From Gammaproteobacteria bacterium (lineage in GTDB: Bacteria; Pseudomonadota; Gammaproteobacteria; Pseudomonadales; Pseudohongiellaceae), in NCBI GenBank assembly GCA_030831165.1, contig JAURLP010000026.1:1-64000 (forward strand): a stretch of 64,000 nt of DNA, in the 5' to 3' direction. Positions within the stretch are counted from its first letter, which is position 1; each line of letters begins with the position of its first letter. Under the pieces are notes generated by a model. That model had not been told where the DNA came from. It did no database searches and saw nothing but the letters and a program-made list of their open reading frames with translations. Positions 10,979-42,331 of the stretch are shown here, piece by piece. The position numbers and the translations under genes were made by a program.

Positions 10979-12430
10979 TTAGAACGGATAGTGTTCCGCT
11001 TGAGTGGCAACCGTAATCCAGCGTAATTCAGTAAAGGCATCGATGCCCGCTTTGCCGCCAAAACGACCATAGCCGGAATTTTTCACACCACCGAACGGAA
11101 TCTGGGCTTGATCCTGCACTGTGGGGCCATTGACATGACAGATACCAGATTTAATTCTCCGCGCAACGCCAAGGCCTCTGGCAATATCGCGGGTAAATAC
11201 GGCAGACGACAGTCCGTATTCGGAATCGTTTGCTATATTGATGGCTTCTTCTTCATCTTTGGCGCGAATCACAGCAACCACAGGGCCAAAGGACTCTTCA
11301 CTGTAGAGTCTCATCTCAGCAGTTACATCGCTGACGACATTGGCAGGCATTAAGACACCATTGGCGTCTCCCCCGCAAAGCCTGGTCGCGCCTTTTTCAA
11401 CCGCATCGGCAATCAAACTTTCAACATGATCAACAGATTTGCGATGTACGACAGCGCCCAGCGGTGTTTTTCCTTCGGTGGGGTCGCCAACAGCCAGTTG
11501 ATCGACTTTGGCTTTGAATTTTGCCAGAAATTCATCGGCTATAGCGTCAACGACAATGACTCTTTCAGTCGACATACATATTTGACCCTGATTCATGAAA
11601 GCACCAAAAGCGGCGGCATCAACAGCAGCATCCAGATCGGCATCTTCCAGAACCAGTAATGGAGCCTTACCGCCGAGCTCAAGCAATACAGGTTTAAGAT
11701 TGGTCGCGGCACGTTGAGCAATTATTCGCCCAACATTTGAAGAGCCAGTAAAGTTAATTCTTCTTACTGCAGGATGATCGATTAAGGCACCGACTATCTC
11801 ACCGGCATCTTCGGGGGTGTTGGAGATGAAATTAACTACTCCATCACCAAAACCGGCTTCCATGAAGGCGCTGGCAATAAGATAGTGAGTTCTTGGACAT
11901 TGTTCTGATGCTTTAAAGATAACTGTGTTGCCGCAAGCCAGAGGCACAGCAATTGATCTGACCCCCAAAATAATAGGCGCATTCCATGGAGCGATACCAA
12001 GGATAACGCCAACAGGTTCTCTCAATCCCATGGACAATTGGCCAGGCTTATCAGATGGAATGACTTCACCATTTATCTGAGTGGTTAAAGAGGCGGCTTC
12101 TCTGACGATAGATACTGCCAGCATTAAATTAAAACGCGCCCAACCTTCAGTAGCGCCAATCTCACCCATCATGGCAGCGACAAAATCATCAGCCTTTGAC
12201 TCCAGGGCGTCAGCCGCGCGATTCAAGACTGCTCTTCTTGCGTTTGGGCTTTGCGTTGACCATTCTGGAAAAGCTTTATTGGCTGCTTCGGCGGCACTAT
12301 TTGCATCCGAAACCGATGCTGCTGAAGCGACAGTCACTACCTCGCCTGACAGGGCGCTTTTGATTTCCAGATGCTTGCTTGTGTCTTGACTCTTGCCGCC
12401 TATTAATAATGGGATCTTCGATGTGGACAT
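10979..12430 (-). CDS. NAD(P)-dependent aldehyde dehydrogenase (aromatic-aldehyde type)
   Basis: A 483-residue class-3 aldehyde dehydrogenase oxidising an aldehyde to its acid with NAD(P)+. Catalytic residues seen are N150 (APWNAP), K173 (FKASE), E251 (ELGGK) and nucleophile C285 (GQICMS). The PWNAPIILGVRSIAVPLACGN region and overall length resemble salicylaldehyde/vanillin dehydrogenases, so an aromatic substrate is plausible. Start: AAGGAG on the minus strand (12436-12441) is 5 bases before ATG at 12430; the GTG at 12436 overlaps that site. It lies 1.9 kb from the PchCF-like genes on the opposite strand. In Pseudomonas the pch genes include 4-hydroxybenzaldehyde dehydrogenase, so it is a candidate for that step. 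Confidence 0.9.
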   Translation of the reverse strand: MSTSKIPLLIGGKSQDTSKHLEIKSALSGEVVTVASAASVSDANSAAEAANKAFPEWSTQSPNARRAVLNRAADALESKADDFVAAMMGEIGATEGWARFNLMLAVSIVREAASLTTQINGEVIPSDKPGQLSMGLREPVGVILGIAPWNAPIILGVRSIAVPLACGNTVIFKASEQCPRTHYLIASAFMEAGFGDGVVNFISNTPEDAGEIVGALIDHPAVRRINFTGSSNVGRIIAQRAATNLKPVLLELGGKAPLLVLEDADLDAAVDAAAFGAFMNQGQICMSTERVIVVDAIADEFLAKFKAKVDQLAVGDPTEGKTPLGAVVHRKSVDHVESLIADAVEKGATRLCGGDANGVLMPANVVSDVTAEMRLYSEESFGPVVAVIRAKDEEEAINIANDSEYGLSSAVFTRDIARGLGVARRIKSGICHVNGPTVQDQAQIPFGGVKNSGYGRFGGKAGIDAFTELRWITVATQAEHYPF

Positions 12431-12643
12431 TGTCACTCCTTGGAAAAATATTGATTAAACTTTGTGGCGCGCTGGCGTTAAATTATGAACAGCTTAACTC
12501 GAAATAGGCGACACTATTTTCTTTTCTATAATCTTGAAGGCAGCCAATATAGTGTGAGGGTTTGGATAATTCAATTAATTTTTAAGCTCACTAATATAAG
12601 TTTTTAAGAATGCACTTTGATTACAGTCTATATTATATGAAGC

Positions 12644-13981
12644 TTATTTGATGATAAGAATATGACTGCTAGCCGGGTATAGCCATTCAACGCCTCTTTG
12701 CGTCACTACTGCATCATCTTCCAGCGGAATCCGGATTTTTGCATTATCCCATTCCGGATTAGCGGTATAAGCAAATAATTCTATTGAAATAAGGTTTGAT
12801 GGTCTTAATTCATAAGTGAGCTGTTCAGGATTAAAAAATGCCAGTGAAGGACCTATTCCATGCCCCCAGTTACCAACTGAGTGAGGGCCTATCACAACAT
12901 CCGTGACGCTTATGTCTGAGCTTGGCTGATTGAAAGCGATTTGATTAAACCCGGCAGCTCTAATAGCTTCCCAGGTGGCATCCAGAGCAATTTGAGCACT
13001 GGCGGCAGGTTTGATAGACCTTTTCATGATCTCCCTCACTTCAAGGGCCTGATTGAAAGCATGTTGAATCCCGTCAGGAGCTTTAGTTTCGCCATCACGC
13101 AGAACATATGCAATCCGCTTCATATCGGTATAGAAATCCAGAAAGCCAACACCCCAGTCCAGCATGAGCAAATCGCCATGTTGAATAATTCGATCCGTGG
13201 ACGTTGCTGCAATTCCATCAGGCCCCGTGACATAAACAGAAGGCATATCAAAAGATGATTCCAGACCACGGCTTAATTGCTGGTCGGACATCCACCAGGC
13301 AACATCTTCAAGGGTGGTCACACCGGGGGTAATGACTTCATTTGAGAATGCTCGTTCTGCGATTTCGCGGCTAATCTCGCCAGCCTCTGCAAAGGCGGCG
13401 ATTTCTACTGTGGTGCGTGTTGAGCGAAAATCTGAAACAAAACGTTCTGCTGAAACCAGCCGATTACCATAGATACCCAGCGTCTCTCTTAAATGCAAGT
13501 ATGAGGTGTGGGACAGGCCATCAGCGCCCCCAATTGAATCGGCCATGTTGATACCAATACGCTCAGGGTTACGCTCAGTGACATAGTCGACAAGTTCATC
13601 AGCACTGCCAAAGTAATCATAAACGCCGCATTGTTCCAGGCGATAGCCTTCAGCGCCCAGCACTGCACGCTCAACCCGTTCGCCTTGATTGGTAAATATA
13701 TAATATGCCCAACCAGTCACATAACCACGGCCAAGGGCCTCCCAAAGAGGGTCAAGGTTGCCTTCGCGCATGACAACGATCCACATATCCAGATTATTTT
13801 CCTGCATTGCAGAGGGCATGATCAGGTCAAATTTTTCTGAGCGAATCTGGCACATCCGCTCCCAGCGTGCTCGCGCCTCCTGGGAGTAGGCCGTGTTTGA
13901 GGTAAAAACCAAAGTGGACAAGACCAATACGAAGGTGTTGGCAGTTAGTAAAGTTGTTGCAGATAAGAAGCGCTTGAACAT
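12644..13981 (-). CDS. Exported M24-family metallopeptidase (Xaa-Pro aminopeptidase-like)
   Basis: A 445-residue protein with an N-terminal signal peptide (hydrophobic 7-30, cleavage near AYS-Q). An N-terminal creatinase-like domain is followed by a pita-bread M24 domain. The five dinuclear-metal ligands are in place: D275 (LDWGVGF), D286 (YTDMKR), H374 (NWGHGIG), E401 (IELFAY) and E421 (PLEDD). The family removes N-terminal residues before proline, or cleaves creatine-like C-N bonds; the substrate is not readable. Start: AGGAT is 6 bases before the ATG. It reads in the same direction as the aldehyde dehydrogenase but with a 213-base gap, so co-transcription is uncertain. Confidence 0.88.
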   Translation of the reverse strand: MFKRFLSATTLLTANTFVLVLSTLVFTSNTAYSQEARARWERMCQIRSEKFDLIMPSAMQENNLDMWIVVMREGNLDPLWEALGRGYVTGWAYYIFTNQGERVERAVLGAEGYRLEQCGVYDYFGSADELVDYVTERNPERIGINMADSIGGADGLSHTSYLHLRETLGIYGNRLVSAERFVSDFRSTRTTVEIAAFAEAGEISREIAERAFSNEVITPGVTTLEDVAWWMSDQQLSRGLESSFDMPSVYVTGPDGIAATSTDRIIQHGDLLMLDWGVGFLDFYTDMKRIAYVLRDGETKAPDGIQHAFNQALEVREIMKRSIKPAASAQIALDATWEAIRAAGFNQIAFNQPSSDISVTDVVIGPHSVGNWGHGIGPSLAFFNPEQLTYELRPSNLISIELFAYTANPEWDNAKIRIPLEDDAVVTQRGVEWLYPASSHILIIK

Positions 13982-14318
13982 AGTGATCCTGTAAGGTTTT
14001 TTTATTAGGGTTCTTTAAGAAGTTTTATAAAGAATTCTAAAAGCGATCCTGCAGCTTATAAAATAATCGTCTATTAAACAAATCCAAGGCCAATGAAGTG
14101 CATAATTAATAAACTTGCATAGTCATTAACAGAGAGGTTGAGCTGAGCTTTTGGAGCCAGTCAGGATGGCTTCCCTTGATGCTTATATCAAAAATTAATA
14201 TTACTTGGCCCAATTTTAATTTTCATTAAATTTGCTTTAGTTATATTAGGCGTCCATACTATTTGCATAATTAAGTTTGCACAGTCAGTTTGCTGAGAAA
14301 GAGGAAGGAACATTGAAG
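13982..14318. other. Divergent promoter region before the pch-like genes
   Basis: About 340 AT-rich bases between the divergent M24 peptidase and the cytochrome gene. It must contain both promoters. No regulator gene, riboswitch or clear operator palindrome is visible. Confidence 0.45.
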
Positions 14319-14618
14319 ATGATAAAAATTATTAGCCTGGTGATTTGCATGGCTTTCATGAGCTCTTTTGCATGGGCGCAGTCCGCTAATGACTGGGAAT
14401 CGGGTGAGCAGATTTTCGATAAGATTTGCCAGTATTGCCACACTCAGGGAGTCGGTCCGGTGTTAACCGGCCGGAATCTGCCGCCAGTATATTTCACTAC
14501 AATAGCCCGCAATGGACTCAACGCAATGCCAGCCTTCAGACCGACTGAACTATCGCCAGAGGATCTTGAAAAAGTGGCTAACTTTTTGAGCCAAAGCGCT
14601 GGCGAGGGGAACCAATGA
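14319..14618 (+). CDS. PchC-like c-type cytochrome (flavocytochrome subunit)
   Basis: A 99-residue periplasmic cytochrome c. The signal peptide (1-20, ending SFAWA-Q) leaves a mature chain of about 79 residues, close to the small cytochrome subunit of p-cresol methylhydroxylase. The heme site is C37-QY-C40-H41 and the likely axial methionine is M70 in NAMPAF. It would accept electrons from the flavoprotein encoded at 15149 and pass them to other periplasmic cytochromes. Start: AAGGA (14306-14310 region) lies about 8-10 bases before ATG 14319; an upstream TTG at 14277 would wreck the signal peptide. The next gene overlaps it by four bases (ATGA), so translation is probably coupled. Confidence 0.85.
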   Translation: MIKIISLVICMAFMSSFAWAQSANDWESGEQIFDKICQYCHTQGVGPVLTGRNLPPVYFTTIARNGLNAMPAFRPTELSPEDLEKVANFLSQSAGEGNQ

Positions 14619-15103
14619 GTATGGATTTTTCCAGACGTCAGAGTTTAAAACTGGCGGCAGGCGCTGGGCTACTTGCTGTGATGCCGCTATCTTCGGCTAC
14701 TGCTCTGGTGCCAGAACATGTATACGTGGTTACCAGAGAGGGTAGTGCAGGTGCCGATTTCGAGCAGTATACGAAAGAGTCTTTAGAGATAAGTTCAATT
14801 CGGATTGAACGCAACAATTATGACAGTATCTTAACTATCGCCAATCTGCCCAAAGGGTCTTTGTTGCTTGGCTTGGTTAGTGAGGCTGAAAAAGTATTGA
14901 TTGATGCCGCCGTGTATGATCGACGAGGGTTCGTTCATATGACTGCGCGGAAAGATGCATCTATTTCCGGTGCTAGGATTGGTGAGCTCGCTGATTTGAC
15001 CGCTCAGGCTGCAAGTGCCCGGTCACAGGGTATGGCTTTTGAAAAAGCTCATGATCCTGAAATCACAAAGGCTTCTTTAATCAGTTTTTATGCCTATTTA
15101 TGA
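14615..15103 (+). CDS. Small Tat-signal protein between PchC- and PchF-like genes (PchX position)
   Basis: A 162-residue protein of unknown function. The N-terminus has a twin-arginine signal (SRRQSLKLAAGAGLL, cleavage near SATA-L), so it is probably exported folded. The mature part (about 130 residues) is mixed alpha/beta by eye, with no cysteine and no recognised catalytic motif. It starts inside the cytochrome stop codon and ends 45 bases before the flavoprotein gene. In Pseudomonas putida, from memory, an uncharacterised gene pchX sits at exactly this place between pchC and pchF. That suggests an assembly or chaperone role for the flavocytochrome, but this rests on position only; I cannot verify sequence similarity. 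Confidence 0.7.
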   Translation: MSMDFSRRQSLKLAAGAGLLAVMPLSSATALVPEHVYVVTREGSAGADFEQYTKESLEISSIRIERNNYDSILTIANLPKGSLLLGLVSEAEKVLIDAAVYDRRGFVHMTARKDASISGARIGELADLTAQAASARSQGMAFEKAHDPEITKASLISFYAYL

Positions 15104-15148
15104 GTCGCTGTATAAGGGCTTTTACTAATAATATTTTAGGAGAATTTA

Positions 15149-16690
15149 ATGGCCGATTTTAATGTACTACCCGATGGTGTGTCTGCTGAACAATTTGGCA
15201 ATGCCATTGAAGAATATGCCGCAATCGTCGGTGATGAAAATGTTTTTGTTTCTGCAGACAACCTGGCCAGTTACAACAAAATTATGATCCCTGCTGATAA
15301 CGCGGATCATGCCCCTTCGGGTGCTTTGGCGCCAGCGTCTGTTGAAGAGGTTCAGGCAATTATAGGCGTTTGTGATAAGTACACGATTCCTGTCTGGCCA
15401 GTTTCGACAGGTAAAAACTTTGGTTATGGATCGGCAGCTGCAGCGACCAGAGGCCAGGTGATTCTGGATTTGCGTCGAATGAACAAGATAATTGAAGTGG
15501 ATGCCGAGCTGGGAACTGCTCTGGTGGAGCCCGGTGTCACCTATCAACAGTTAAAGGATTATCTTGAGGAAAATAACATTCCTCTGTGGCTGTCTCCGCC
15601 AGCACCTTCTTCCTTGGTTAGCCCCTTGGGCAATGCGGTAGACAGAGGGGTCGGTTATACGCCCTACGGTGATAATTTTTTCTTCTCTTGTGGAATGGAA
15701 GTGGTCTTGGCCAATGGTGAAGTGCTTCGAACGGGTATGGGCTCCATGCCTAACTCTACTTCATGGCAGGTGTTTAAATGGGGCTATGGACCCTCACTGG
15801 ATGGAATATTTACGCAATCTAATTATGGTGTCGTCACCAAGCTTGGCATGTGGTTAATGCCTCAACCGCCAGCATTTAAAGCCTTTGTTATCCGCTATCC
15901 TGATGATGCTGATATCGAAAAAGCCATTGAAACAATCCGACCGCTCAGAATTGCACAGATCATTCCCAATGCGGTGGTGATCGCGCATGCTTTATGGGAA
16001 GGAGGCGCGGAAGTTGTACGTTCTGACTATTATCAGGGAGAAGGTTCCATTTCTGATGAGGCAGTGGAAAGAATGAAGTCAGACCTCGGCATGGGGGCAT
16101 GGAATATTTATGCTGGACTCTATGGTACACCTGAGCAAATTGCATTGAACTGGGACATTGTCAGAAATACCTTTGCCGGCACTGGGGCCATTATTCAGGA
16201 TGAAAATGATTTGGCTGGCAATCCGACCTTCGATTATCGAGCCAAATTAATGCGTGGTGAAATGACCCTGAAAGAATTTGGCCTTTATAACTGGCGTGGA
16301 GGCGGTGGATCTGCCTGGTTTGCTCCTGTGGCACAAGCCAGAGGCTCTGAAGGTTTAGCACAAATGGAGTTGGCCAAAGAGATCCTGGGCAAATACGGTT
16401 TTGACTATGTCGCTGAGTACATTGTTGGCTGGCGTGAAGGTCATCATATTATTGACCTCTTGTTTGATAAAACCAACGCTGAAGAGACTGAACGGGCGAA
16501 CCAGTGTTTTGATGAGCTTTTAAGAGAATTTAGTGAACGCGGCTGGGGCTCTTATCGCACAAACATCGCCTTCATGGACAAAGTCGCCAATACCTTTGGT
16601 CCGGTTAAACGAGATGTCGATCAAAAAATTAAGCGAGCTTTGGACCCCAAAGGAATCATCGCACCCGGTAAGTCAGGCATTTATATTTAA
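15149..16690 (+). CDS. 4-cresol dehydrogenase-like flavoprotein (PchF/vanillyl-alcohol oxidase family)
   Basis: A 513-residue FAD enzyme of the vanillyl-alcohol oxidase family, oxidising 4-alkylphenols at the para carbon. An N-terminal PCMH FAD domain (about 55-245; STGKNFGYGSA near 90-100) is followed by the substrate domain. Compared from memory with P. putida PchF, key positions are conserved: Y380 in LYNWRGGGGS matches the tyrosine that covalently binds FAD (Y384), E423 matches E427, H432 H436, D436 D440, and Y469-R470 Y473-R474. At the expected R512 there is lysine (K508, APGKSG). Tyr at the flavin-linkage site plus a cytochrome gene argues for a flavocytochrome rather than an oxidase. 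It has no signal of its own, so export would need help. AGGAG lies about 8 bases before ATG. Confidence 0.88.
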   Translation: MADFNVLPDGVSAEQFGNAIEEYAAIVGDENVFVSADNLASYNKIMIPADNADHAPSGALAPASVEEVQAIIGVCDKYTIPVWPVSTGKNFGYGSAAAATRGQVILDLRRMNKIIEVDAELGTALVEPGVTYQQLKDYLEENNIPLWLSPPAPSSLVSPLGNAVDRGVGYTPYGDNFFFSCGMEVVLANGEVLRTGMGSMPNSTSWQVFKWGYGPSLDGIFTQSNYGVVTKLGMWLMPQPPAFKAFVIRYPDDADIEKAIETIRPLRIAQIIPNAVVIAHALWEGGAEVVRSDYYQGEGSISDEAVERMKSDLGMGAWNIYAGLYGTPEQIALNWDIVRNTFAGTGAIIQDENDLAGNPTFDYRAKLMRGEMTLKEFGLYNWRGGGGSAWFAPVAQARGSEGLAQMELAKEILGKYGFDYVAEYIVGWREGHHIIDLLFDKTNAEETERANQCFDELLREFSERGWGSYRTNIAFMDKVANTFGPVKRDVDQKIKRALDPKGIIAPGKSGIYI

Positions 16691-16790
16691 TTTCCGTTGA
16701 ATTTTTGCTTATCGGTTCTCCAACTATCTTCTATTTGCCAATTAGTTAATAATTATTGCTACTGGGTAAATAGAGGATATTTTCTGAAGC

Positions 16791-18935
16791 ATGCTAATCC
16801 ATGAAAAAAGCTACGGCAGGCCTGTAGAGCTTGGATCCTATCCTCTTGAAGCATTACCCAGGGATCTTGATGTCATTGATGAAGAAAGCAAGCTTCCTCC
16901 TGTACGTGAAGAGCATTATATTGCCTCGACTAAAACACTGGCAAAAGCTACAAATTTATATGCGAGCTATTTCGAAGCTTACTTTGAGGGAGATGTAAGT
17001 CCAGTCTTGGCGCCAGTCCCGAAATCATTAGAGCGCAGAAGTGTTGACATGAAAGGCGCCGTTTACTTCCTTGATGCCTCTCACGCAGGAATATGCAAAA
17101 TCCCGGAAAATGCCTGGTTAATAGATGCAGTACGAGCTGGGCATTCCTTTGCCATTGTTTTTAGTGTCGCTTATGGCAGATTGCCTGAGCAGGAAAATTT
17201 AGCCCACGAATGGTTGACTGCCACAGAGCATGATATTGCTCGAATGCGCTGCGCCGGGATTGCCGCTTCAATATCCGGGTATATTCGACGCTTAGGGTTT
17301 AGGGCGCAATCACATATAGAAGGGAATAGCTTGCTGGACCTTAATCGACTGGCAGTGTTGTCAGGAATTGCTGAGCGCACAAGCGATAGCTCAAGCGTTC
17401 AGAGTCCTTTTCTGGGCAAGGATTTTGCGTTAGCTGTAGTTTCAACGGATTATGAATTAGCTGCTGATTCTCCTTTCAAGGCAGATTCCAAAGTGAGTAA
17501 ATTCAGTAACTGGAGAGGCATCAACGGTGCCATGTCATTGCGAGAAATAAACCGACGAAATAAACGACAAAGCCATCTAAGTGCTTATCCGATGGAGCAA
17601 GTAAAAAGAGTTGAACGGCCGACGACACTGATTCTCGATGATGAAGTGCCACGTGTCCCTAAAAGAGCTGCGTTCTTTGCTCGAGCAAGAGTTGGGGATC
17701 TGGGAGAAAAAGCTCAGAAAGAAGTTGCACGATTTGCTGTTAAACATCCCTTAACCGCCGGATTGGTGCCATTGCTGGCGACCTTAGCGAGCAAGCAGGA
17801 AGGTGAGGTCGCGCCGGTCAGTAGCGCGGAGTTCAATGATCCTCTCGCAAACGCTAAGGCTTTGAAATCTTTGGCATATCATTTAGGGGCTGACCTAACC
17901 GGTATTTGTGAAATACCTCGTTATGCCTGGTATAGCCACCATATGGATGGTACAGAAATAGAGACTTATCATCGCTATGCCGTCGTCATGTTAATAGATC
18001 AGGGTCACGGCACCATGGAAGGTGCCAGCGGCGATGACTGGATTTCTGGCGGGCAGTCAATGCGTGGTTATCTTCGTGGGGCAGAAATTGCTGGCATTAT
18101 GTCAGAGTTTTTAAGAAAAAAGGGTCACTCTGCTCGACCCCACACTCAGGCAGACAGTGATGTACTGCACATACCATTGGTGCTATGGGCAGGTTTGGGA
18201 GAACTTAGCCGCATTGGTGAGCTTGTTTTAAACCCCTATGTTGGTCCCAGATTTAAATCAGTCGTATTAACCACAGATATTCCACTTGAAGTGGATAAGC
18301 CCATTGATTTTGGTCTGCAATATTTTTGTGAAAACTGCTTGAAGTGCGCCAGAGAATGTCCAGTTAGCGCTATTCCGTTTAAAGAAAAAGTAATGTTCAA
18401 CGGCTATGAAATCTGGAAGCCAGATGTTGAACGTTGCACGAGATATCGCGTAACAAATCAAAAAGGGTCAGCCTGCGGTCGCTGTATGAAAACCTGTCCC
18501 TTAAATAAGGTTGTTACCGCAGATGGGTCTTTATTGCATCGAGTAGGTACTTGGCTTGGTGTTCATGCGCGCTGGCTAAAACCAATAATGGTCCCTATCG
18601 CTGTGCTTTTGGATGATAGCCTAGGTTTTGGGAAGCGTAACCTTTTAAAAAAATGGTGGTTAGATCTGGAAATTGTAGATGGTGTTTGTGTGCTGCCAAA
18701 AGCAACTAATCAACGAGATATTGATATGAAAAAAGATATTTCTGGTGATAAATCTCCGGTTGGTTATTATTCTGCTAATGTGATGCCACCTCCAAACTCA
18801 AGAGAAGCAGTATTGCTCAATCACCGTGAAGCAGTTAAACGGGGAGAGGAATTGGAAACCGTCAGTGCAGCTAAAACCAGACATCAGGATATGGGTGAAA
18901 GACCTGCACACTATATTCCTACTAAAAACATATAA
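16791..18935 (+). CDS. Reductive dehalogenase-family protein (RdhA-like), two 4Fe-4S motifs, internal duplication
   Basis: A 714-residue cobamide/iron-sulfur protein of the RdhA/QueG superfamily. The C-terminal core (about 355-504) carries RdhA hallmarks: WAGLGELSRIGELVLNPYVG, TTDIPLEVDKPIDFG, then cluster one C513-x2-C516-x2-C519-x3-C523-P and cluster two C549-x12-C562-x2-C565-x3-C569-P. Residues 85-228 look like a degenerate copy of the core without clusters (AGICKIPENAW 99-109 versus TGICEIPRYAW 370-380). There is no Tat or Sec signal, so it is probably cytosolic like the catabolic aerobic RdhA enzymes, and no RdhB anchor gene or fused reductase domain is present. Possible role: reductive removal of halogen, or another B12-dependent reduction. 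It is 100 bases after the PchF-like gene, same strand. Family confident; substrate inferred. Confidence 0.83.
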   Translation: MLIHEKSYGRPVELGSYPLEALPRDLDVIDEESKLPPVREEHYIASTKTLAKATNLYASYFEAYFEGDVSPVLAPVPKSLERRSVDMKGAVYFLDASHAGICKIPENAWLIDAVRAGHSFAIVFSVAYGRLPEQENLAHEWLTATEHDIARMRCAGIAASISGYIRRLGFRAQSHIEGNSLLDLNRLAVLSGIAERTSDSSSVQSPFLGKDFALAVVSTDYELAADSPFKADSKVSKFSNWRGINGAMSLREINRRNKRQSHLSAYPMEQVKRVERPTTLILDDEVPRVPKRAAFFARARVGDLGEKAQKEVARFAVKHPLTAGLVPLLATLASKQEGEVAPVSSAEFNDPLANAKALKSLAYHLGADLTGICEIPRYAWYSHHMDGTEIETYHRYAVVMLIDQGHGTMEGASGDDWISGGQSMRGYLRGAEIAGIMSEFLRKKGHSARPHTQADSDVLHIPLVLWAGLGELSRIGELVLNPYVGPRFKSVVLTTDIPLEVDKPIDFGLQYFCENCLKCARECPVSAIPFKEKVMFNGYEIWKPDVERCTRYRVTNQKGSACGRCMKTCPLNKVVTADGSLLHRVGTWLGVHARWLKPIMVPIAVLLDDSLGFGKRNLLKKWWLDLEIVDGVCVLPKATNQRDIDMKKDISGDKSPVGYYSANVMPPPNSREAVLLNHREAVKRGEELETVSAAKTRHQDMGERPAHYIPTKNI

Positions 18936-18990: not shown

Positions 18991-20169
18991 ATGAGCAATA
19001 CTTCATTTAAACCGGGTCGGCATTTTTTACAAATTCCAGGCCCATCAAATGTTCCAGACAGTGTTTTACGTGCTATGGCACAGCCGGTCATTGATCATAG
19101 AGGCCCTGATTTTCCAGCCTTAACCTTTAATATTCTTGAGCAGATAAAGCCTGTATTTAATACTGAATCTCCGGTTTTTATTTATCCAGCATCGGGGACA
19201 GGCGGCTGGGAATGTGCACTGCTGAACGCCCTTTCACCTGGCGACAAAGTGCTCGCTTTTGAGACGGGGCACTTTGCTACCTTATGGAAAGAAGTCGCTG
19301 ACAAACTGGGTCTGGATGTGCAATGGATACTGGGCGACTGGCGCCATGGAGTAGATCCTGAAAAAGTAGAAGAAGCTCTTACACTGGATACTCAGCACAG
19401 CATTAAAGCGGTGCTCGCAGTTCATACTGAAACATCGACAGGTGTAACCAGTCAAATAAGTAAAGTTCGTCAGGCGATTGATGCAGCAAATCATCCGGCT
19501 TTATTTTTTGTGGATGCCGTTTCCTCTCTGGCATGTACGGAGTACTTACATGACGACTGGAAAGTGGATGTCACTGTCAGCGGGTCACAAAAAGGTCTGA
19601 TGCTACCACCAGGGCTTAGTTTTAATGCCGTTAGTGAGAAAGCGCTGGCAGCGTCCAAACAGTCAAAATCGCACCACTCCTATTGGCGCTGGGATGCCAT
19701 GCTTAGTTTTAATGAAAAAGGCTATTATCCTTATACGCCCAGTACAAATTTACTTTATGGCCTGCAGGAAGCCTTATCTTTATTGCATCAGGAAGGCCTT
19801 GATAATGTGTTTGCCCGACATCGTCGTTTTGCTGAGGCAACTCGACGAGCGGTCAATGCCTGGGGACTGGAAAATATATGTTTAAATCCTGATGAATTTT
19901 GTAATTCAACAACGGCGGTTTTGGTACCAGAAGGGCAAAATGCGGACGCTTTGCGAGACATTATTTTACGTCGTTTTAATATGTCTCTTGGCACCGGGCT
20001 GGGAAAACTCAAGGGTAAAATTTTCAGGATAGGGCATATTGGGGATTTAAATGAGCTCATGCTTGCTGGCACTCTGAGTGGTGTTGAGATGGGCCTGGGT
20101 CTCTCCGGGATTCCTTATAAAAAAGGCGGCGTAAATGCGGCACTGGACTATCTGGCTGAACCGGAATAA
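18991..20169 (+). CDS. Class V aminotransferase (serine/alanine-glyoxylate aminotransferase type)
   Basis: A 392-residue fold-type I PLP enzyme. Seen are PGPSNVP at 17-23, PASGTGGWE near 66-74, D175 (FVDAVSS) and the PLP lysine K201 in SGSQKGLMLPPG. This pattern is that of serine-glyoxylate aminotransferase (SgaA) and alanine-glyoxylate aminotransferase, making glycine from glyoxylate. It follows the RdhA-like gene by 55 bases with a good AAGGA site and is followed 31 bases later by a permease gene, so the three may be co-transcribed. A second, divergent paralogue lies at 57608-58738. The amino donor is not determinable here. Confidence 0.9.
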   Translation: MSNTSFKPGRHFLQIPGPSNVPDSVLRAMAQPVIDHRGPDFPALTFNILEQIKPVFNTESPVFIYPASGTGGWECALLNALSPGDKVLAFETGHFATLWKEVADKLGLDVQWILGDWRHGVDPEKVEEALTLDTQHSIKAVLAVHTETSTGVTSQISKVRQAIDAANHPALFFVDAVSSLACTEYLHDDWKVDVTVSGSQKGLMLPPGLSFNAVSEKALAASKQSKSHHSYWRWDAMLSFNEKGYYPYTPSTNLLYGLQEALSLLHQEGLDNVFARHRRFAEATRRAVNAWGLENICLNPDEFCNSTTAVLVPEGQNADALRDIILRRFNMSLGTGLGKLKGKIFRIGHIGDLNELMLAGTLSGVEMGLGLSGIPYKKGGVNAALDYLAEPE

Positions 20170-20200
20170 GGCTAGATAAAAATAATAAAAGGATTACATA

Positions 20201-21574
20201 ATGGATGCTTCTACAGCGGTAAGTAATAACGCTGCAATTTCATTGATTGGCTTTGCGATTGTCATTTTCCTCTTGCTGTTCCTAATAGCAAAATGGAAAT
20301 GGCATGTTTTTTTCGCATTGCTAATTCCTATTATGTTGTTTGGGGTATTACCGGGCGTTCAGCAAAACAATTTTATTGACGCCTTCGAAAGTGGCTTTGG
20401 TAATACCCTGGGATCTATCGGGGTAGTGATTGTATTAGGCTCTATCATTGCCGAAGCATTGAAGCATACTGGCGCAATTCAAGTTATCACCAAGTCGATG
20501 GTTAATCTGGTTGGCACCAAGCGAATGCCGCTGGCTTTAACACTCACAGGCTTTGTTATCGGTATCGCTATTTTTTCAGATGTCGCCTATGTCATCTTGA
20601 ACCCCCTGGTACATTCGGCGGCCAAAACCATGGGCGTTGGCATCGCAACCATGTCTACAGGCTTGGTCGGGGCTTTACAGTTAACACACGCCATCGTACC
20701 ACCAACCCCTGGTCCCCTAGCGGCAGCTGCCCTGGTTGGCGCTGATATTGGCAAGACCATTATTTTTGGTGGAATCGCCTGCTTTTTTGGTTCTATTGCC
20801 GGTTGGGCATGGGGGGCTTTTGTTGCAGGTCCTCGGATTAGCACTATGGCGAGTGATGAGTTTGAAGGCGTCTCTATTGAGGATCTGGATGCTGATGGCC
20901 CTTCAGAATTACCCAGTACGCTCAGCTCCTATATGCCGATTATTATTCCCATTATCTTGATTGGTACTCAAAGTGTGGTGTCATTGGTCTTTGCAGAAGG
21001 GCATATCCTTAGAACCATTTTTGCCTATCTTGGCTGGCCAGTGATCGCACTGTCCGTGGGTGTGTGGCTGGCATATCGTAATATCAAGAGTGAAGACGAC
21101 AAGGAAAAAGCCAAAGATGCCTGGGTAGAATCAGCATTAAAAACCTCGGCGATGATATTAGTGGTGACAGGTCTTGGTGGTTCGTTAAGTGCTATTTTAA
21201 GAGGCACGCCTGCTGTGGATTTTATAGCCTCCATTTTTACTGATTATGGCCTGCCAACGATTATGCTGCCATTTGTCATCGGTATAATCGGCAACATGAT
21301 TACCGGTTCAACCACTGTGGGGGTGATTACGGCGGCTTCTTTGGTGGCGCCTATGCTTGGGACACTGGGTTTGTCGCCTGAAGCTGCCATGTTGGCAGGA
21401 GCAAGCGGATCCGTCATTATCAAGTATGTGAATAGCAGCTATTTCTGGGTTTGTACTTCGCTGTCACGATTAAGCGTGACTGATGCGGTGTTCAGTTATG
21501 GTGGTGCAACTCTGGTTGGTGGGCTGGTTTCATTTATGGCTGTCTGTGCCATGTGGGTGCTGGGTTTAATTTAG
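20201..21574 (+). CDS. GntP-family organic-acid permease
   Basis: A 457-residue inner-membrane permease with about 12-14 hydrophobic segments. The signature THAIVPPTPGPLAAAALVGAD (near 165-185, quoted in part) and the FSDVAYVILNPLV stretch identify the gluconate:H+ symporter (GntP) family. Known substrates are gluconate, glycerate, D-serine and related hydroxy acids, which suits the neighbouring aminotransferase that could yield hydroxypyruvate or glyoxylate. AAAAGGA lies just before the ATG. It converges with the next gene: only one base separates the two stop codons and no terminator hairpin is visible. Confidence 0.88.
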   Translation: MDASTAVSNNAAISLIGFAIVIFLLLFLIAKWKWHVFFALLIPIMLFGVLPGVQQNNFIDAFESGFGNTLGSIGVVIVLGSIIAEALKHTGAIQVITKSMVNLVGTKRMPLALTLTGFVIGIAIFSDVAYVILNPLVHSAAKTMGVGIATMSTGLVGALQLTHAIVPPTPGPLAAAALVGADIGKTIIFGGIACFFGSIAGWAWGAFVAGPRISTMASDEFEGVSIEDLDADGPSELPSTLSSYMPIIIPIILIGTQSVVSLVFAEGHILRTIFAYLGWPVIALSVGVWLAYRNIKSEDDKEKAKDAWVESALKTSAMILVVTGLGGSLSAILRGTPAVDFIASIFTDYGLPTIMLPFVIGIIGNMITGSTTVGVITAASLVAPMLGTLGLSPEAAMLAGASGSVIIKYVNSSYFWVCTSLSRLSVTDAVFSYGGATLVGGLVSFMAVCAMWVLGLI

Positions 21575-21575
21575 A

Positions 21576-24470
21576 TTAAGTCAGCGCCATCTGTAAGACT
21601 CTGGCAACATGTAGAGCTTCTCTTCCTGTGCCATGCTGAATCTGACTGCGACAACTGGTCCCGTCAGCAACAATAATACTATCGCCTGAATCGTTATTGA
21701 TTGCCGGAAATAATGAAAGTCCCGCCATTTGCATGGATACCTCATAGTGCTCTTTTTCATAGCCAAAGGATCCGGCCATTCCACAACAGCTACTATCAAT
21801 TGTTTGAACCTTAAGGTCTGGAATTAACCCCAAAACTTCTTGTACAGGCGACATTGCAGCAAAGGCTTTCTGGTGGCAATGCCCATGTAATAAAGCTTGC
21901 TTGTTTGTAATAGGGTTCAACTTCAGGTTCAGCTTCCCCTCCAGCTTTTCCTTGGCCAGAAATTCTTCAAACAGATAAGCATTCTCTGACAGTAAGCGAG
22001 TATCTTCACCAGGAAGAAGGGCAAGGTATTCATCTCTTAGGGTCAGCAGGCAGGAAGGCTCCAATCCGACAACAGGCACGCCACGCTTTACATAAGGCAA
22101 CAATGCTTCAATCATTCGATTAGCCTCAACACGGGCTTCATCCAGTAAACCATTGCTAAAGAAGGTTCTGCCACAGCATAAAGGTCTTCCTCTATCAGCG
22201 GGGCTTGGGCAAGTGACCTTATAACCAGCAGCATTGAGAACTTCCAATGCAGCATTAGCATTTTCTGCCTCAAAGCAGCTGTTAAAGGTATCAACCAGCA
22301 AGATGACTTCTGGCTTGTTGGCAGTATCCGCTGTTTCCTGTGTGTCTGGTGTAAAGTGATCAGTACGCCAAAGAGGCAATTTACGTTTGCTGCTTATGCC
22401 CAATATACTTTCTGAAATTTTTGCAAAGCCGGGAATTTGATCACGCAGATTGAGCAGGAAACTAAAATACCTTAGCTTAGGTGCATAGCGTGGCAGGTAG
22501 GCGAATAATCGATCTCTCAGAGTTAAACCATGTTTCTGATGATAGTGATGCAGAAACTCAGTTTTCATTTTCGCCATATCAATGCCGGTGGGGCATTCAC
22601 GTTTACAGCCTTTACAGCCGACACAAAGGTCCATGGTCTGGTACATTGCATCTGAAGTGAAAGCATCGGCTCCCAGTTGTCCAGTAATAGCCAGGCGTAA
22701 AGTATTAGCACGGCCTCGGGTTAAATGTTGTTCATTCTTGCTGACCCGATAGGAGGGACACATGACCCCAACATTTGCTTTTCGGCAGGCTCCATTGTTA
22801 TTGCACATCTCGATAGCACGATCAAAGCCATCCCATTCAGACCAGTCGAGACTGGGTTTGATATCAATAGGGGTATAGCCAGGTGCAAAACGCATAATGT
22901 TGCGATCATCCATTTTATGAGGATGCACAATTTTGCCTGGATTAAATAAGCCGGTCGGATCAAAGTAGTTTTTAACTTCTTCGAAATTATCAACCATGCG
23001 ACGGCCGAACATTGGCTCATGAAATTCTGAACGTGAAATGCCGTCGCCATGTTCACCTGAATGTGAACCCTTATATTCACGCACCATAGCCATGGTTTCT
23101 TCGACAATGTCGCGCATTTTGGTAGCGCCACTAGCATCTTTCATGTTTAAAACCGGCCTTACATGTAAAGTGCCAACTGATGCATGTGCATAAAAGGTGC
23201 CAGTTGTACCGTGCTTATGAAAAATATCAGTTAGGCGCCGAGTGTACTCCGCCAGATCTTCAAGACGAACAGCGCAGTCTTCAATGAATGAAATTGGTTT
23301 GCCGTCACCCTTCATTGACATCATGATATTGAGACCAGATTTGCGGACCTCCCAGATTTCATTCTGAAAATCATCGGTTGCTTCGACAACGGAGTTTGGA
23401 AAGCCCAGATCCCCCATCAATTCTACAAGTTGCTTTAAGCCTTTGAGTTGTTCGTCATGATTTTCACCTGAGAACTCTACTAACAATAAAGCTTGGGGTT
23501 CGCCCTGCACAAAACGATTCACTATGGGTGCATATATTGGTATATCCCGAGCCAGATCAATCATGGTTCTATCAACTAGCTCTACTGCCGAGGGATTAAG
23601 TTTGACAATATGTTGTGTGCTGTCCATTGCCTCGTAGAAAGTGGGGAAATGGCAAACTCCCAGTACTTTATTTTTTGGGATAGGCTGTAAATTGAGATGT
23701 ATGCGCTGAAAGAAACCCAAGGTGCCTTCAGAACCAACCAGCAAACGTGCAAGATTGGGATCTGCTTTGACCAATTCGTCGATATTGTAGCCGCCAACGC
23801 GTCTCAATAAATTGGGGAAACGCTCTGCAATTTCTTTGGCTTCTCTTTTTCCCAGATTGATGAGTTGCTTAACTAATTCCTGATGCTTTGGATTGGTAAG
23901 CGTCTCGCCATTAAATTTTTTGAAATGAGCGCGGCTGCCATCTGCTAGCAAGGCTTCTATAGATCTAACATTGTGCACCATATTGCCATAGCGAATTGAA
24001 CGCGCGCCACAGCTATTGTTGCCGGTCATGCCGCCTATAGTGGCGCGGTTAGCTGTTGATACATCCACGGGATACCAAAGTCCTTCTGCTTTTAGCTGCC
24101 TATTCAATTCATCCAGAACCATGCCGGGCTGCACACAGACTGTCGCTTGTTCCTTGTTAAAATCAATTAACCTATTCAAGGATCTGGTCGTGTCGATCAT
24201 CAGCGCTTCACCAATCGCCTGACCATTTTGTGAAGTTCCACCACCACGGGGTAAAACGGGTATCCCTTCTTCAGCCGCAATTTGCACAGCGATTTCAACA
24301 TCTTGCTCAGATGCCGGAATGACCACCCCAATCGGCATCAATTGATAGATAGAAGCGTCAGTACTGTAACGTCCTCTGGAGAAGGTATCGTGAAGCACAT
24401 CGCCCTGGATTTCCCGTTCTAAACGTCTAAACACAGGATTGTGGACAGAGCTGTTACTGGTTTTTGGCAT
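21576..24470 (-). CDS. Fused FAD/Fe-S D-2-hydroxyacid dehydrogenase (GlcD-GlcF type, YdiJ/D-2-hydroxyglutarate-like)
   Basis: A 964-residue fusion. The N-terminal FAD-binding_4 domain (about 40-260; RGGGTSQNGQA, GGMTGNNSCGARS) is followed by an FAD-oxidase C domain (to about 555; HSGEHGDGISRSE). Then come ferredoxin-like cysteines (CNNNGACRK...MCPSYR and CVGCKGCKRECP near 575-660) and two CCG domains (GLEPSCLLTLRDE; DSSCCGMAGSFGYE). The layout matches YdiJ-type D-2-hydroxyglutarate dehydrogenase and D-lactate dehydrogenases, which feed electrons to the quinone pool from the inner face of the membrane. Full length for the type (about 950-1020). The start lacks a strong Shine-Dalgarno. It is not co-directional with the flanking genes. 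Confidence 0.9.
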   Translation of the reverse strand: MPKTSNSSVHNPVFRRLEREIQGDVLHDTFSRGRYSTDASIYQLMPIGVVIPASEQDVEIAVQIAAEEGIPVLPRGGGTSQNGQAIGEALMIDTTRSLNRLIDFNKEQATVCVQPGMVLDELNRQLKAEGLWYPVDVSTANRATIGGMTGNNSCGARSIRYGNMVHNVRSIEALLADGSRAHFKKFNGETLTNPKHQELVKQLINLGKREAKEIAERFPNLLRRVGGYNIDELVKADPNLARLLVGSEGTLGFFQRIHLNLQPIPKNKVLGVCHFPTFYEAMDSTQHIVKLNPSAVELVDRTMIDLARDIPIYAPIVNRFVQGEPQALLLVEFSGENHDEQLKGLKQLVELMGDLGFPNSVVEATDDFQNEIWEVRKSGLNIMMSMKGDGKPISFIEDCAVRLEDLAEYTRRLTDIFHKHGTTGTFYAHASVGTLHVRPVLNMKDASGATKMRDIVEETMAMVREYKGSHSGEHGDGISRSEFHEPMFGRRMVDNFEEVKNYFDPTGLFNPGKIVHPHKMDDRNIMRFAPGYTPIDIKPSLDWSEWDGFDRAIEMCNNNGACRKANVGVMCPSYRVSKNEQHLTRGRANTLRLAITGQLGADAFTSDAMYQTMDLCVGCKGCKRECPTGIDMAKMKTEFLHHYHQKHGLTLRDRLFAYLPRYAPKLRYFSFLLNLRDQIPGFAKISESILGISSKRKLPLWRTDHFTPDTQETADTANKPEVILLVDTFNSCFEAENANAALEVLNAAGYKVTCPSPADRGRPLCCGRTFFSNGLLDEARVEANRMIEALLPYVKRGVPVVGLEPSCLLTLRDEYLALLPGEDTRLLSENAYLFEEFLAKEKLEGKLNLKLNPITNKQALLHGHCHQKAFAAMSPVQEVLGLIPDLKVQTIDSSCCGMAGSFGYEKEHYEVSMQMAGLSLFPAINNDSGDSIIVADGTSCRSQIQHGTGREALHVARVLQMALT

Positions 24471-38488: not shown

Positions 38489-40879
38489 GTGTTCAATCCA
38501 GGAGAGTCTCGCCTTAATAAACTGCTGACTTTTTCGATCTTGGCAGCATCATCCTTTGGAGTTCAATCTCAAGAATCGGTTACTGAGTTCAGAACCGAGT
38601 TTGTCTATGATTATTGTACTGAATGCCATAATTCCATTGACTACTCAGGCAGTCTGGATTTTTGGGAAATGGATATCGCCAATGTTCATGTTGACGCGGA
38701 ACGTTGGGAAAAAGCCATTCGAAAGCTTAAGACCGGTCAGATGCCACCAAGAGGTGAAGAGCGGCCAGATCCTGAAGCCCTCGATGCATTTCTTGACAGT
38801 ATAGTCGCGGATCTGGACTCTGCTGAAGCAAATCCTGGTATTGCCGGTTTGCGACGCATGAACCGCATCGAATATAGCAATGCTGTTCGTGATTTGCTGG
38901 GGATTAAAATTGATGTCCGTTCCATGCTGCCGCCCGATGACAGCACTGTCGGGTTTGATAATATTGCCCTTGGAATAAACCCTCTCTTGCTGGAACAGTA
39001 TCTTACCACAGCCACCCGAATCAGTAGACTCGTGGTAGGCAGCCCCGAAATTCCACTGCTTGCCGAGTCTTACAGAGCAGCACCGGATCTGTCACAGGAT
39101 GTCCATTTACCCGGACTTCCACTCGGCACCCGCGGTGGTTTGCTAATTGAGCACAATTTTCCGCTGGATGCCGATTACCATTTTGATATCAGGCTGATGA
39201 TGACCACTGTAGATCAGATAAAAGGGGTCGAATTTGAGCAGCAAGCTGATATCTGGATTGATGATGAACTGGTGCACAGTATTACTTTTGGAGGATATGA
39301 AGACTTCAATTTGGGAAGAGGAGCGCAACGAGTCGCCGTTGAGGACAAAATGCAGGTCACCTTGCCAGTAACGGCAGGTCGCCATGAAATCGCAATTGCT
39401 TTTGTCGACGAAAACAGCGCCCTGAATACGGAAAACCTGAGTCCGTTCATCAAGCCAGCTACGGTTATTCAGCCGCTTGACCCGACAGGTCCACCTCATC
39501 TTGACCGTTTGACCATAACCGGGCCTTACAATCCGGTCGGTCCGGGCAATCCCGATTACAGGCAGAGACTGTTCAGTTGTCGGCCCAATGCCACATTGAG
39601 TGCAGATGAGTGTGCATACAATATCCTCTCTGAACTGACACAAAGGGTTTATCGCAGACCAGTCAGTGAAGAGGATATCAACCCGGTGATGCGCCTGTTT
39701 GCTGAAGGTAACCGGGACGGCAGTTTTGATCAGGGTATTGACTATGCCTTGCGTTATATCCTGTCAAATCCCAAATTTATTTTCCGTTTTGAAGAACCCC
39801 CGGAATCTGCTGTTCCGGGCGATGATTATTTCATATCGGATCTGGAACTGGCATCGCGCTTATCCTTTTTTATCTGGAGCAGCATCCCGGATGAAGAGTT
39901 ATTAGAAACCGCAATCAATGGCCGTTTGTCCGATACGGAAGTGTTAAACCAGCAAATCGAGCGTATGTTGCTGGATGAAAAATCCTTTGCCCTCTCAGAA
40001 AATTTTGCTGGCCAGTGGCTGTACTTGAGAAACCTGTCTACAACTGATCCTGATCCTCAGAAATTTCCTGACTGGGACGATAATCTGAGGCAGGCCATGC
40101 TCACAGAAACACAGATGTTTTTCGATAGTATTGTTCGCGAGGATCGCAGTGTGCTGGACCTCCTCAATGCAGATTACAGCTTCATCAACGAACGCCTAGC
40201 GCTGCATTATGGCTATAGAGGCATCAGAGGTGAAAGGTTCCGTCGTGTGGAGGTGCCAGAAGAACGTCGTGGTTTGCTAGGTCATGGCAGCATTTTGACG
40301 GTTACCTCACATGCTCACAGGACTTCGCCAGTCCTGCGCGGTAAATTTATCCTTGAGAACATGATGGGGACTCCACCACCAGCTCCACCACCCAATGTAC
40401 CAGACCTTCAGGCCACATCAGAAGGTGGGATTCCTTTGTCTATTCGACAACAGATGGAGCAGCACAGGGCAGATCCGGTCTGTGCCAGCTGTCACAATGT
40501 GATGGACCCCTTGGGACTGGCTCTGGAAAACTTTGATGCCTTGGGTCGATGGAGAGAGCTGGGTATAACAGGTCGCCCAATCGACGCCAGTGGTGAGCTT
40601 TCGGATGGAACTCCTGTTTCCGGACCTCGGGACCTCCGGGCCGCTTTGATGGCAGATCCTGAGATATTTGTGTCTACCATGCTGGAGAAAATGTACATTT
40701 ATGCACTGGGTCGGCCGATAGAGTATTACGACCAACCGACCATGCGCAGGATTCTGGAAGCATCAGCTCAAGACAATTACAGCTTTTCCTCACTGGTAGA
40801 GGGAATTGCCAATAGTATTGCTTTTCGTATGAATCGATATGAAAAAGATGCTGCAACATTAAGTATGAATGAAAATTGA
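38489..40879 (+). CDS. Planctomycete-type cytochrome protein (DUF1587/1595/1592/1588/1585)
   Basis: A 796-residue exported multi-domain protein. After a signal peptide (to about residue 28) come a cytochrome-like N-terminal domain with C43-TE-C46-H47, DUF1587 (RRMNRIEYSNAVRDLLG, about 122-138), a putative ligand-binding beta domain (190-340), and DUF1595/DUF1592 (YRRPVSEEDI, SNPKFIFRFEEPP, ASRLSFFIWSSIPDEELL). DUF1588 follows with VLDLLNADYSFINERLALHYG and a second CxxCH (VCASCHNVMDPLGLALENFD), then DUF1585 at the end. Such proteins are abundant in planctomycetes and some polymer- and sulfate-degrading bacteria; no reaction is established. Start: GTG 38489 with AGGGAG upstream. It probably forms an operon with the next two genes. 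Confidence 0.88.
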   Translation: MFNPGESRLNKLLTFSILAASSFGVQSQESVTEFRTEFVYDYCTECHNSIDYSGSLDFWEMDIANVHVDAERWEKAIRKLKTGQMPPRGEERPDPEALDAFLDSIVADLDSAEANPGIAGLRRMNRIEYSNAVRDLLGIKIDVRSMLPPDDSTVGFDNIALGINPLLLEQYLTTATRISRLVVGSPEIPLLAESYRAAPDLSQDVHLPGLPLGTRGGLLIEHNFPLDADYHFDIRLMMTTVDQIKGVEFEQQADIWIDDELVHSITFGGYEDFNLGRGAQRVAVEDKMQVTLPVTAGRHEIAIAFVDENSALNTENLSPFIKPATVIQPLDPTGPPHLDRLTITGPYNPVGPGNPDYRQRLFSCRPNATLSADECAYNILSELTQRVYRRPVSEEDINPVMRLFAEGNRDGSFDQGIDYALRYILSNPKFIFRFEEPPESAVPGDDYFISDLELASRLSFFIWSSIPDEELLETAINGRLSDTEVLNQQIERMLLDEKSFALSENFAGQWLYLRNLSTTDPDPQKFPDWDDNLRQAMLTETQMFFDSIVREDRSVLDLLNADYSFINERLALHYGYRGIRGERFRRVEVPEERRGLLGHGSILTVTSHAHRTSPVLRGKFILENMMGTPPPAPPPNVPDLQATSEGGIPLSIRQQMEQHRADPVCASCHNVMDPLGLALENFDALGRWRELGITGRPIDASGELSDGTPVSGPRDLRAALMADPEIFVSTMLEKMYIYALGRPIEYYDQPTMRRILEASAQDNYSFSSLVEGIANSIAFRMNRYEKDAATLSMNEN

Positions 40880-40966
40880 TTGATTATTGGCTAAATTTTG
40901 CACATGATTGCATGTGATATGCATTTTTGGCCGAAAACTAAGGGTGAATCTTAGAAGGAGAAAAGC

Positions 40967-42292: not shown

Positions 42293-42331
42293 TACATGGC
42301 AGCATAAGCCGACATTATGAGGAATAAGTTT

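Follow-up and report, generated by a model that had tools for sequence, protein, structure and literature searches.

Genes for a p-cresol-type flavocytochrome beside a stand-alone reductive dehalogenase gene in a gammaproteobacterium: a possible aerobic route for ortho-brominated phenols

The window analyzed here, a stretch of 64000 bases, corresponds to bases 1-64000 of contig 17 in the genome of a gammaproteobacterium of the Pseudohongiellaceae (genome G000; 2.30 Mb in 39 contigs, completeness 97.9%). On its plus strand it carries a run of four genes: pchC, for the c-type cytochrome subunit of a flavocytochrome (14319-14618); a pchX-like gene for a small protein with a twin-arginine translocation (Tat) signal (14615-15103); pchF, for a flavoprotein of the p-cresol methylhydroxylase (PCMH) type (15149-16690); and rdhA, for a stand-alone catabolic reductive dehalogenase (16791-18935). 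An aldehyde dehydrogenase gene lies on the minus strand (10979-12436). An earlier note on this DNA had named these genes and placed the four cluster genes on one strand, and the starts and the shared strand were both confirmed. The note had also described the aldehyde dehydrogenase gene as divergent nearby; this holds, on the minus strand, with the correction that a gene for an M24-family peptidase-like protein (12644-13981, minus strand; PF00557, E value 1e-15), a co-conserved neighbor, stands between it and pchC. The assignments of the flavocytochrome and of RdhA were borne out by Pfam, NCBIfam, matches in the Protein Data Bank (PDB) found with phmmer, and residue checks, confirming the observation of pchCXF beside rdhA together with its gene assignments.

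The best PDB match of PchF is p-cresol methylhydroxylase (1dii; 690 bits, E 1.6e-206, 56% identity), with lower scores for eugenol oxidase (5fxd, 419 bits) and VAO (1e0y, 386 bits). All nine positions checked against 1dii are kept (Y95, E380, Y384, W394, E427, H436, D440, Y473 and R474); we take these to be active-site positions of PCMH, with Tyr384 as the residue that binds flavin adenine dinucleotide (FAD) covalently. The ratio of nonsynonymous to synonymous substitution rates (dN/dS) for pchF was 0.02-0.05 in pairwise comparisons of three genomes of the genus. The pchC product (PF13442, E 1.2e-19) is a single-haem c-type cytochrome with a CQYCH motif and a signal peptide recognized by eye, and it is 71-86% identical in four other genomes of the genus. 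The same genome encodes, on contig 30, a second VAO/PCMH paralogue that is 34% identical to PchF (L131 4188-6811); it has a cytochrome and a Tat protein of its own, in the order Tat protein, flavoprotein, cytochrome.

The start of the small Tat-type open reading frame (ORF) overlaps the stop of pchC by 4 nt. Its twin-arginine signal, SRRQSLK, was recognized by eye, no Pfam match was found at E 0.1, and the one NCBIfam hit was a SoxY-paralogue model, at E 0.033. Of 16 PchF loci retrieved at 50% identity or more, 14 nevertheless have a small ORF of this type next to PchF (11 found by a motif script and 3, from this genus, by tblastn); loci with such an ORF include L131 (6236-6811, reverse strand) and L086 (3398-3976). 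Within the genus the protein has a dN/dS of 0.34-0.43 and changes at roughly ten times the rate of PchF, while its C-terminal end, SLISFYAYL, is conserved. A structure model from three sequences reached a mean predicted local distance difference test score of 41.8, which is too low for use. Because no signal peptide was seen in PchF itself, the small protein could be a putative carrier or chaperone in the Tat export of PchF. The open-access literature searched yielded no paper on pchX in connection with cresol.

The RdhA protein of 714 aa scored 186.3 bits against TIGR02486 (curated cut-off 160.35), and its best PDB match is NpRdhA (4ras; E 1.1e-191, full-length alignment, 47% identity). Pfam found neither an FNR nor a Fer2 domain, hence the protein does not carry the C-terminal PDOR domain of the BhbA type. 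It shows no Tat signal (N-terminus MLIHEKSYGRPV), and among ORFs of at least 80 aa there is no separate small gene for an RdhB-like anchor directly beside rdhA. A search with PF13486 was uninformative, with zero matches in this genome and also zero in 14 controls. The dN/dS of rdhA was 0.05-0.065 in the same pairwise comparisons as for pchF, and the gene is under purifying selection.

To place the catalytic residues, we used an alignment of 88 RdhA sequences (90 rows minus L002 and L003, which repeat genes already included). In NpRdhA, Ser422, Lys488 and Arg552 bind the phenol hydroxyl and Tyr426 is the proton donor, according to PMC7565698. Y426, K488, R552 and the eight cysteines of the Fe-S clusters occur in 88/88 rows and S422 in 87/88, and the window RdhA has all of them. 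Ortho-dehalogenation is a likely activity of the predicted enzyme. The same text has A419 lining the pocket for the second bromine and Lys307 contacting the carboxylate when the substrate adopts one non-productive conformation (PMC7565698). Position 419 is a small Gly in the window RdhA, as it is in 74 of the rows; at position 307, 66 rows have a basic residue (Lys or Arg) and 11 have Val, among the latter the group to which the window RdhA belongs; and the window RdhA shares Gln at position 452 with L006, L045 and L132 alone. Taken together, V307 and Q452 hint at a changed pocket entrance, and they do not tell the substrate. The idea that V307 would prove a substrate without a carboxylate was considered and dropped: in the seven long rows this position is Ser or Ala, and the fused enzyme JtRdhA, which is not in the alignment, uses benzoates (PMC10463259). 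Homologues of 1065-1114 aa were counted as the fused type by length only.

A quick tree with a midpoint root was built from 81 rows, nine of the 90 having been dropped as repeats or partial sequences. The three RdhAs linked to pch genes (those of the window, L006 and L045) group with L132 at a support of 100 in the Shimodaira-Hasegawa-like approximate likelihood ratio test, and the three alone group at 94. The window RdhA falls in a group of 42 rows, NpRdhA in a separate group of 27, and the seven long, fused-type rows stand apart. We know of no assayed member of the 42-row stand-alone group.

The aldehyde dehydrogenase (PF00171, E 6.2e-152) has as its nearest PDB entries vanillin dehydrogenase (9ihb, E 9.4e-213) and salicylaldehyde dehydrogenase (6qhn). 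It shares 62% identity across 422 residues with the aldehyde dehydrogenase in the pchF cluster of the Novosphingobium plasmid pNL2, and because of this identity it fits as the probable pchA, encoding 4-hydroxybenzaldehyde dehydrogenase. The description of this gene in the earlier note as of the aromatic-aldehyde type is well founded, since the same kind of enzyme sits in a pchF cluster elsewhere. Contig 12 carries in one run ligK, a gene for 4-oxalomesaconate tautomerase, two amidohydrolase genes, ligA, ligB, a GFO_IDH dehydrogenase gene and pobA. The scores exceed the cut-offs for PobA (635 bits over 538.7), LigK (330.8 over 304.5), 4-oxalomesaconate tautomerase (545.7 over 440), LigA (208.6 over 108.6) and LigB (554.4 over 317); by our own reading the amidohydrolases are ligJ-like and ligI-like and the dehydrogenase is ligC-like. 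From the homology of the aldehyde dehydrogenase and this run of genes, a route from 4-hydroxybenzaldehyde to protocatechuate 4,5-cleavage looks to be encoded in the genome. A cobalamin riboswitch (66.7 bits, gathering threshold 31.5) was detected about 120 nt ahead of the start of btuB, which is cut off by a contig end (fragment, TIGR01779, E 6.5e-62). Fer2 matches at E<=0.01 in the genome number three: two small subunits of the molybdo-hydroxylase type (Fer2 plus Fer2_2) and one molybdopterin/NuoG-like protein. PF00175 matches a single protein of the genome, an Fpr-like reductase of 247 residues encoded on contig 9.

The earlier note had proposed to look for pch and rdhA in other genomes, and the pairing does occur outside this one: in two further species of the genus, with a probable rdhA remnant in a third, and with no linkage found beyond the genus. 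The pchCXF genes are present in all five genomes of the genus, and rdhA adjoins them in three. In G000 and in the two further species (G798 and G799, represented by loci L006 and L045), rdhA stands immediately after pchF. Protein identity among the three species is 80-84% for RdhA and 88-96% for PchF, and synonymous sites are near saturation, with a proportion of synonymous differences of 0.60-0.73 for pchF and 0.66-0.73 for rdhA. Because the adjacency of pchF and rdhA has been kept in three genomes with synonymous sites so close to saturation, it exceeds chance.

The fourth genome, G797, has the order pchA, pchC, X, F, aminotransferase, GntP, FAD/Fe-S dehydrogenase, without the M24 peptidase gene and without rdhA. 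The M24 gene is present in L006 and L045; in G797 it is absent between the aldehyde dehydrogenase gene and pchC, which are directly divergent there, and the aminotransferase gene comes directly after pchF. The 358-bp gap between pchF and the aminotransferase gene (L176 6268-6625, reverse complement) resembles the region upstream of rdhA together with the first ~40 bases of that gene. When the gap was aligned with the window, L045 and L006, 1, 4 and 0 of 2000 dinucleotide-shuffled sequences, respectively, scored at least as high. No RdhA protein match was found in the gap at E<=1, and no rdhA match was found at the DNA level in G797 or G796, a search that a diverged copy could escape. The resemblance suggests that the G797 lineage most likely once had rdhA and then lost it, which would make the pairing of pch and rdhA older than the G797 species. 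The gene rdhA would be an optional part of the locus, probably lost at least once in the genus. In the fifth genome, G796, pchCXF lies in a different context (L177 9318-11662, reverse strand), with neighbors that differ from those of the rdhA arrangement. Its pchF is followed by genes for a TetR-like regulator (recognized by eye), an FAD aromatic-ring hydroxylase and a flavodoxin-like flavin mononucleotide (FMN) reductase, another add-on at a pch cluster.

In the gap between pchF and rdhA lies an AT-rich, imperfect palindrome of 19 bp (16743-16761, plus strand), a possible promoter or operator element. It is kept upstream of rdhA in both other species, unchanged in L045 and with a single difference in L006, and it seems to be present in the G797 gap in inverted orientation. 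No other exact copy was found in the G000 genome, where near-matches stayed at the control level, and the element was not found with up to three mismatches at the RdhA of L156. This pattern speaks for a control element that would belong to rdhA itself within the genus. Promoter and terminator scans gave results at chance level.

Among the matches listed, the nearest RdhA outside the three species is L132 (74% identity), from genome G768 of a different family of the class. Its contig lacks PchF over 19 kb and contains eight attC-like repeats. In the G768 locus (L156 9646-17944), the repeats occupy 14401-17944 and are accompanied by short ORFs, mostly on the same strand; a GNAT acetyltransferase gene lies just beside the repeats and an insertion-sequence-type transposase gene at the end of the contig. 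The region looks like a chromosomal integron cassette array, and the position of L132 beside such repeats points to mobility of this RdhA lineage.

These observations can be joined in one reading, on which our own judgment is evenly balanced: a p-cresol-type upper pathway (pchA and pchCXF) has beside it an accessory catabolic reductive dehalogenase, for ortho-brominated phenols. Enzymes of the PchCF family oxidize a methyl or hydroxymethyl group in the para position of a phenol, yielding the aldehyde, with cytochrome c as the electron acceptor, and PchCF would do so here, probably in the periplasm, as the signal peptide of the cytochrome suggests. PchA, to judge from homology, would convert the aldehyde to 4-hydroxybenzoate. 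In the cytoplasm, RdhA, with cobalamin and two [4Fe-4S] clusters, would remove the ortho halogens by the chemistry of NpRdhA, through a cobalt-halide contact and with Tyr426 as proton donor, and it may act on the brominated phenol, aldehyde or acid. PobA would then hydroxylate 4-hydroxybenzoate and LigAB would cleave the ring, so that carbon would flow through the protocatechuate 4,5-pathway. RdhA would in this way extend a pathway for 4-alkylphenols or 4-hydroxybenzyl alcohols to their ortho-brominated natural relatives. Judging from RdhA alone, brominated 4-alkyl or 4-hydroxybenzyl phenols are plausible substrates; the compound named 3,5-dibromo-4-cresol in the earlier note is correctly called 2,6-dibromo-4-methylphenol.

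Several observations weigh against such a coupling. The region is syntenic as a block of 11 genes in the three genomes, with extra genes inserted in L006, so the adjacency may be passive, and synteny alone is no proof of a functional tie. The conserved upstream element means that rdhA need not be part of a pch operon. Val at position 307 may point away from a carboxylate substrate, a point that decides nothing. There is no clear pocket difference between the PchF proteins of congeners with and without rdhA: nine positions set the carriers apart from both rdhA-less copies, all of them outside the active-site positions checked, and at 20 further positions only G797 deviates. One of these 20 is position 435, next to His436, where the three rdhA carriers and G796 have Gly and G797 has Met, as does 1dii. 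Pfam scans of 45 window proteins revealed neither a stand-alone ferredoxin nor a ferredoxin reductase; NpRdhA has genes for both as neighbors (PMC10463259). A passage in a review places PCMH as membrane associated, not periplasmic (PMC6472588).

The survey beyond the genus is a further point of this kind. The flanks of 79 RdhA loci, taken from the best 80 of 585 RdhA relatives in genome contigs, contained no PchF in 77 cases, the exceptions being L006 and L045; a weak match to an FAD protein (27% over 185 residues) occurs at L033, which is counted among the 77. Both flanks reached at least 2 kb in 54 loci and at least 5 kb in 41, and short contigs could hide linkage. Besides RdhA itself, clustering of the flank ORFs gave no neighbor family common to more than 8 loci, a weak test because longest-ORF calling is poor in GC-rich loci, where NpRdhA itself was lost. 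At the level of whole genomes, PchF-like genes (E<=1e-60) were found in 12 of 46 RdhA genomes (46 of 83 RdhA loci entered) vs 12 of 390 genomes in the order. Without the lineage of G000 the counts were 10/44 vs 11/389 (p 7e-6), in a comparison that spans different taxa, and for close PchF only they were 2/44 vs 4/389 (p 0.12). The class sample (E<=1e-60) contained RdhA in 7 of 369 genomes, a PchF-like gene in 11 and both in 2, namely G000 and G550, the latter with the two genes on different contigs. In the order sample, RdhA (E<=1e-50) occurred in 5 of 390 genomes, a PchF-like gene in 12 and both in 2, namely G000 and G221, the latter by a weak match. Co-occurrence was significant with G000 included (p 0.016 for the class and 0.008 for the order) but not without it (Fisher p 0.15 and 0.11). 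A general pch-rdh module beyond the genus, which we also considered, is unsupported, given that no linkage was found in the flanks covered and that genome-level co-occurrence is not significant without G000.

The alternative that survives best, which we regard as somewhat improbable and still as a serious contender, is that the two enzymes are neighbors without a shared pathway. RdhA would be a true ortho-halophenol dehalogenase whose substrates bypass PchCF, such as 2,6-dibromophenol and polybrominated phenols in detoxification or other catabolism, and history would have placed its gene, with its own promoter, at this locus. The upstream element, the conservation of the block as a whole and the 77 loci without PchF all fit this explanation, as does the RdhA of L132 beside its integron-like array, and a marine catabolic reductive dehalogenase that debrominates 2,6-dibromophenol is known (PMC13101508). 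Against it stand the position of rdhA directly after pchF in all three genomes of the genus where the gene was found and the encoded route for the expected dehalogenated product. A second alternative, which we consider unlikely, restricts PchCF to non-halogenated p-cresol or lignin-type phenols and makes rdhA a mobile accessory on its way out. Such a departure would account for the presence of linked rdhA in three of five genomes vs pchCXF in all five, for the decayed remnant in G797 and for the lower conservation of RdhA relative to PchF, but the low dN/dS of rdhA and its intact catalytic residues argue against it, and the near-saturated synonymous sites imply long residence at the locus. That RdhA is a cobamide enzyme of the same fold with another reaction, and no dehalogenase, is very improbable: its tree group lies apart from that of NpRdhA and holds no assayed member known to us, but the residues of NpRdhA that bind the phenol hydroxyl and donate the proton are kept and the TIGR02486 score is above the cut-off.

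A more specific form of the coupled reading, an aerobic route not described so far for naturally occurring ortho-brominated 4-alkylphenols or 4-hydroxybenzyl alcohols, we put forward tentatively, at rather less than even chances. A periplasmic flavocytochrome would oxidize the side chain while the ring is still brominated, a cytoplasmic stand-alone RdhA with the V307 and Q452 entrance would debrominate the product, and protocatechuate 4,5-cleavage would follow; the dehalogenase would be an optional part, lost between sister species, with its nearest listed outside relative beside an integron-like array. The parts are known singly, and the combination did not turn up in the literature searched: no paper on pch together with rdhA was found in the open-access literature, which misses most subscription journals.

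Among known systems, the pchACXF genes of Pseudomonas putida (PDB 1DII, 1WVE) share with the window the order cytochrome, small protein, flavoprotein and also a PchF with the covalent-FAD tyrosine that is 56% identical; in the window, unlike there, pchA is divergent and rdhA follows pchF. NpRdhA of Nitratireductor pacificus pht-3B (PDB 4RAS, 6ZXU) is likewise stand-alone and catabolic, without a Tat signal and with the same catalytic residues and two sets of [4Fe-4S] cysteines. It belongs to a different tree group, the window enzyme having Val for Lys at 307, Gly for Ala at 419 and Gln for Asn at 452, and it adjoins genes for ferredoxin and a reductase (PMC10463259), whereas the window rdhA does not. 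Of the systems described so far, the closest is the plasmid-encoded bromoxynil pathway of Comamonas sp. 7D-2 (Chen et al. 2013, as described in PMC10463259), which includes BhbA and ends in 4-carboxy-2-hydroxymuconate-6-semialdehyde. As in the proposed route, a catabolic RdhA serves an aerobic pathway for a carbon source and the product is that of protocatechuate 4,5-cleavage; the Comamonas pathway differs in that it starts from a nitrile, bromoxynil, and in that BhbA is PDOR-fused and plasmid-borne (PMC10463259), whereas the present genome has an upper pathway with a p-cresol flavocytochrome, a stand-alone RdhA, and pobA and lig genes on another contig. Ros_A3X954, a catabolic reductive dehalogenase of a marine Roseobacter, also comes from a heterotroph and lacks a Tat signal, and it removes ortho bromine from a phenol, which likens it by description to the reaction predicted here; the accessible part of PMC13101508 mentions no pch genes.

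Downstream of rdhA, on the plus strand, follow a gene for a class-V, BhcA-like aminotransferase (18991-20169; NF045640, 440 bits, cut-off 650 not reached), probably a separate unit, and one for a GntP-family permease (20201-21574; PF02447, E 7.8e-87). With an FAD/4Fe-4S oxidase-family protein they make up a conserved neighbor unit (18991-24470), whose content suggests glyoxylate or hydroxyacid use and no relation to phenols. Elsewhere in the window, genes for a DUF1592/1588/1585/1587/1595 protein, a DUF1552 (HXXSHH) protein and an ankyrin-repeat protein are consecutive (38489-43798), a set known from Planctomycetes. At 59068-62040 an L-lactate permease gene adjoins one for an FMN-dependent 2-hydroxyacid dehydrogenase, an ordinary unit for lactate use.

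If the coupled reading is true, bacteria with small genomes could feed on brominated 4-substituted phenols under oxygen, and the locus would show how a phenol pathway already in place can gain a dehalogenase as an add-on. The genus amounts to a natural experiment, in which the same pch cluster occurs with rdhA, without rdhA and with what is probably its remnant. The finding likewise draws attention to a widespread set of stand-alone RdhA proteins whose substrate range is directly testable.

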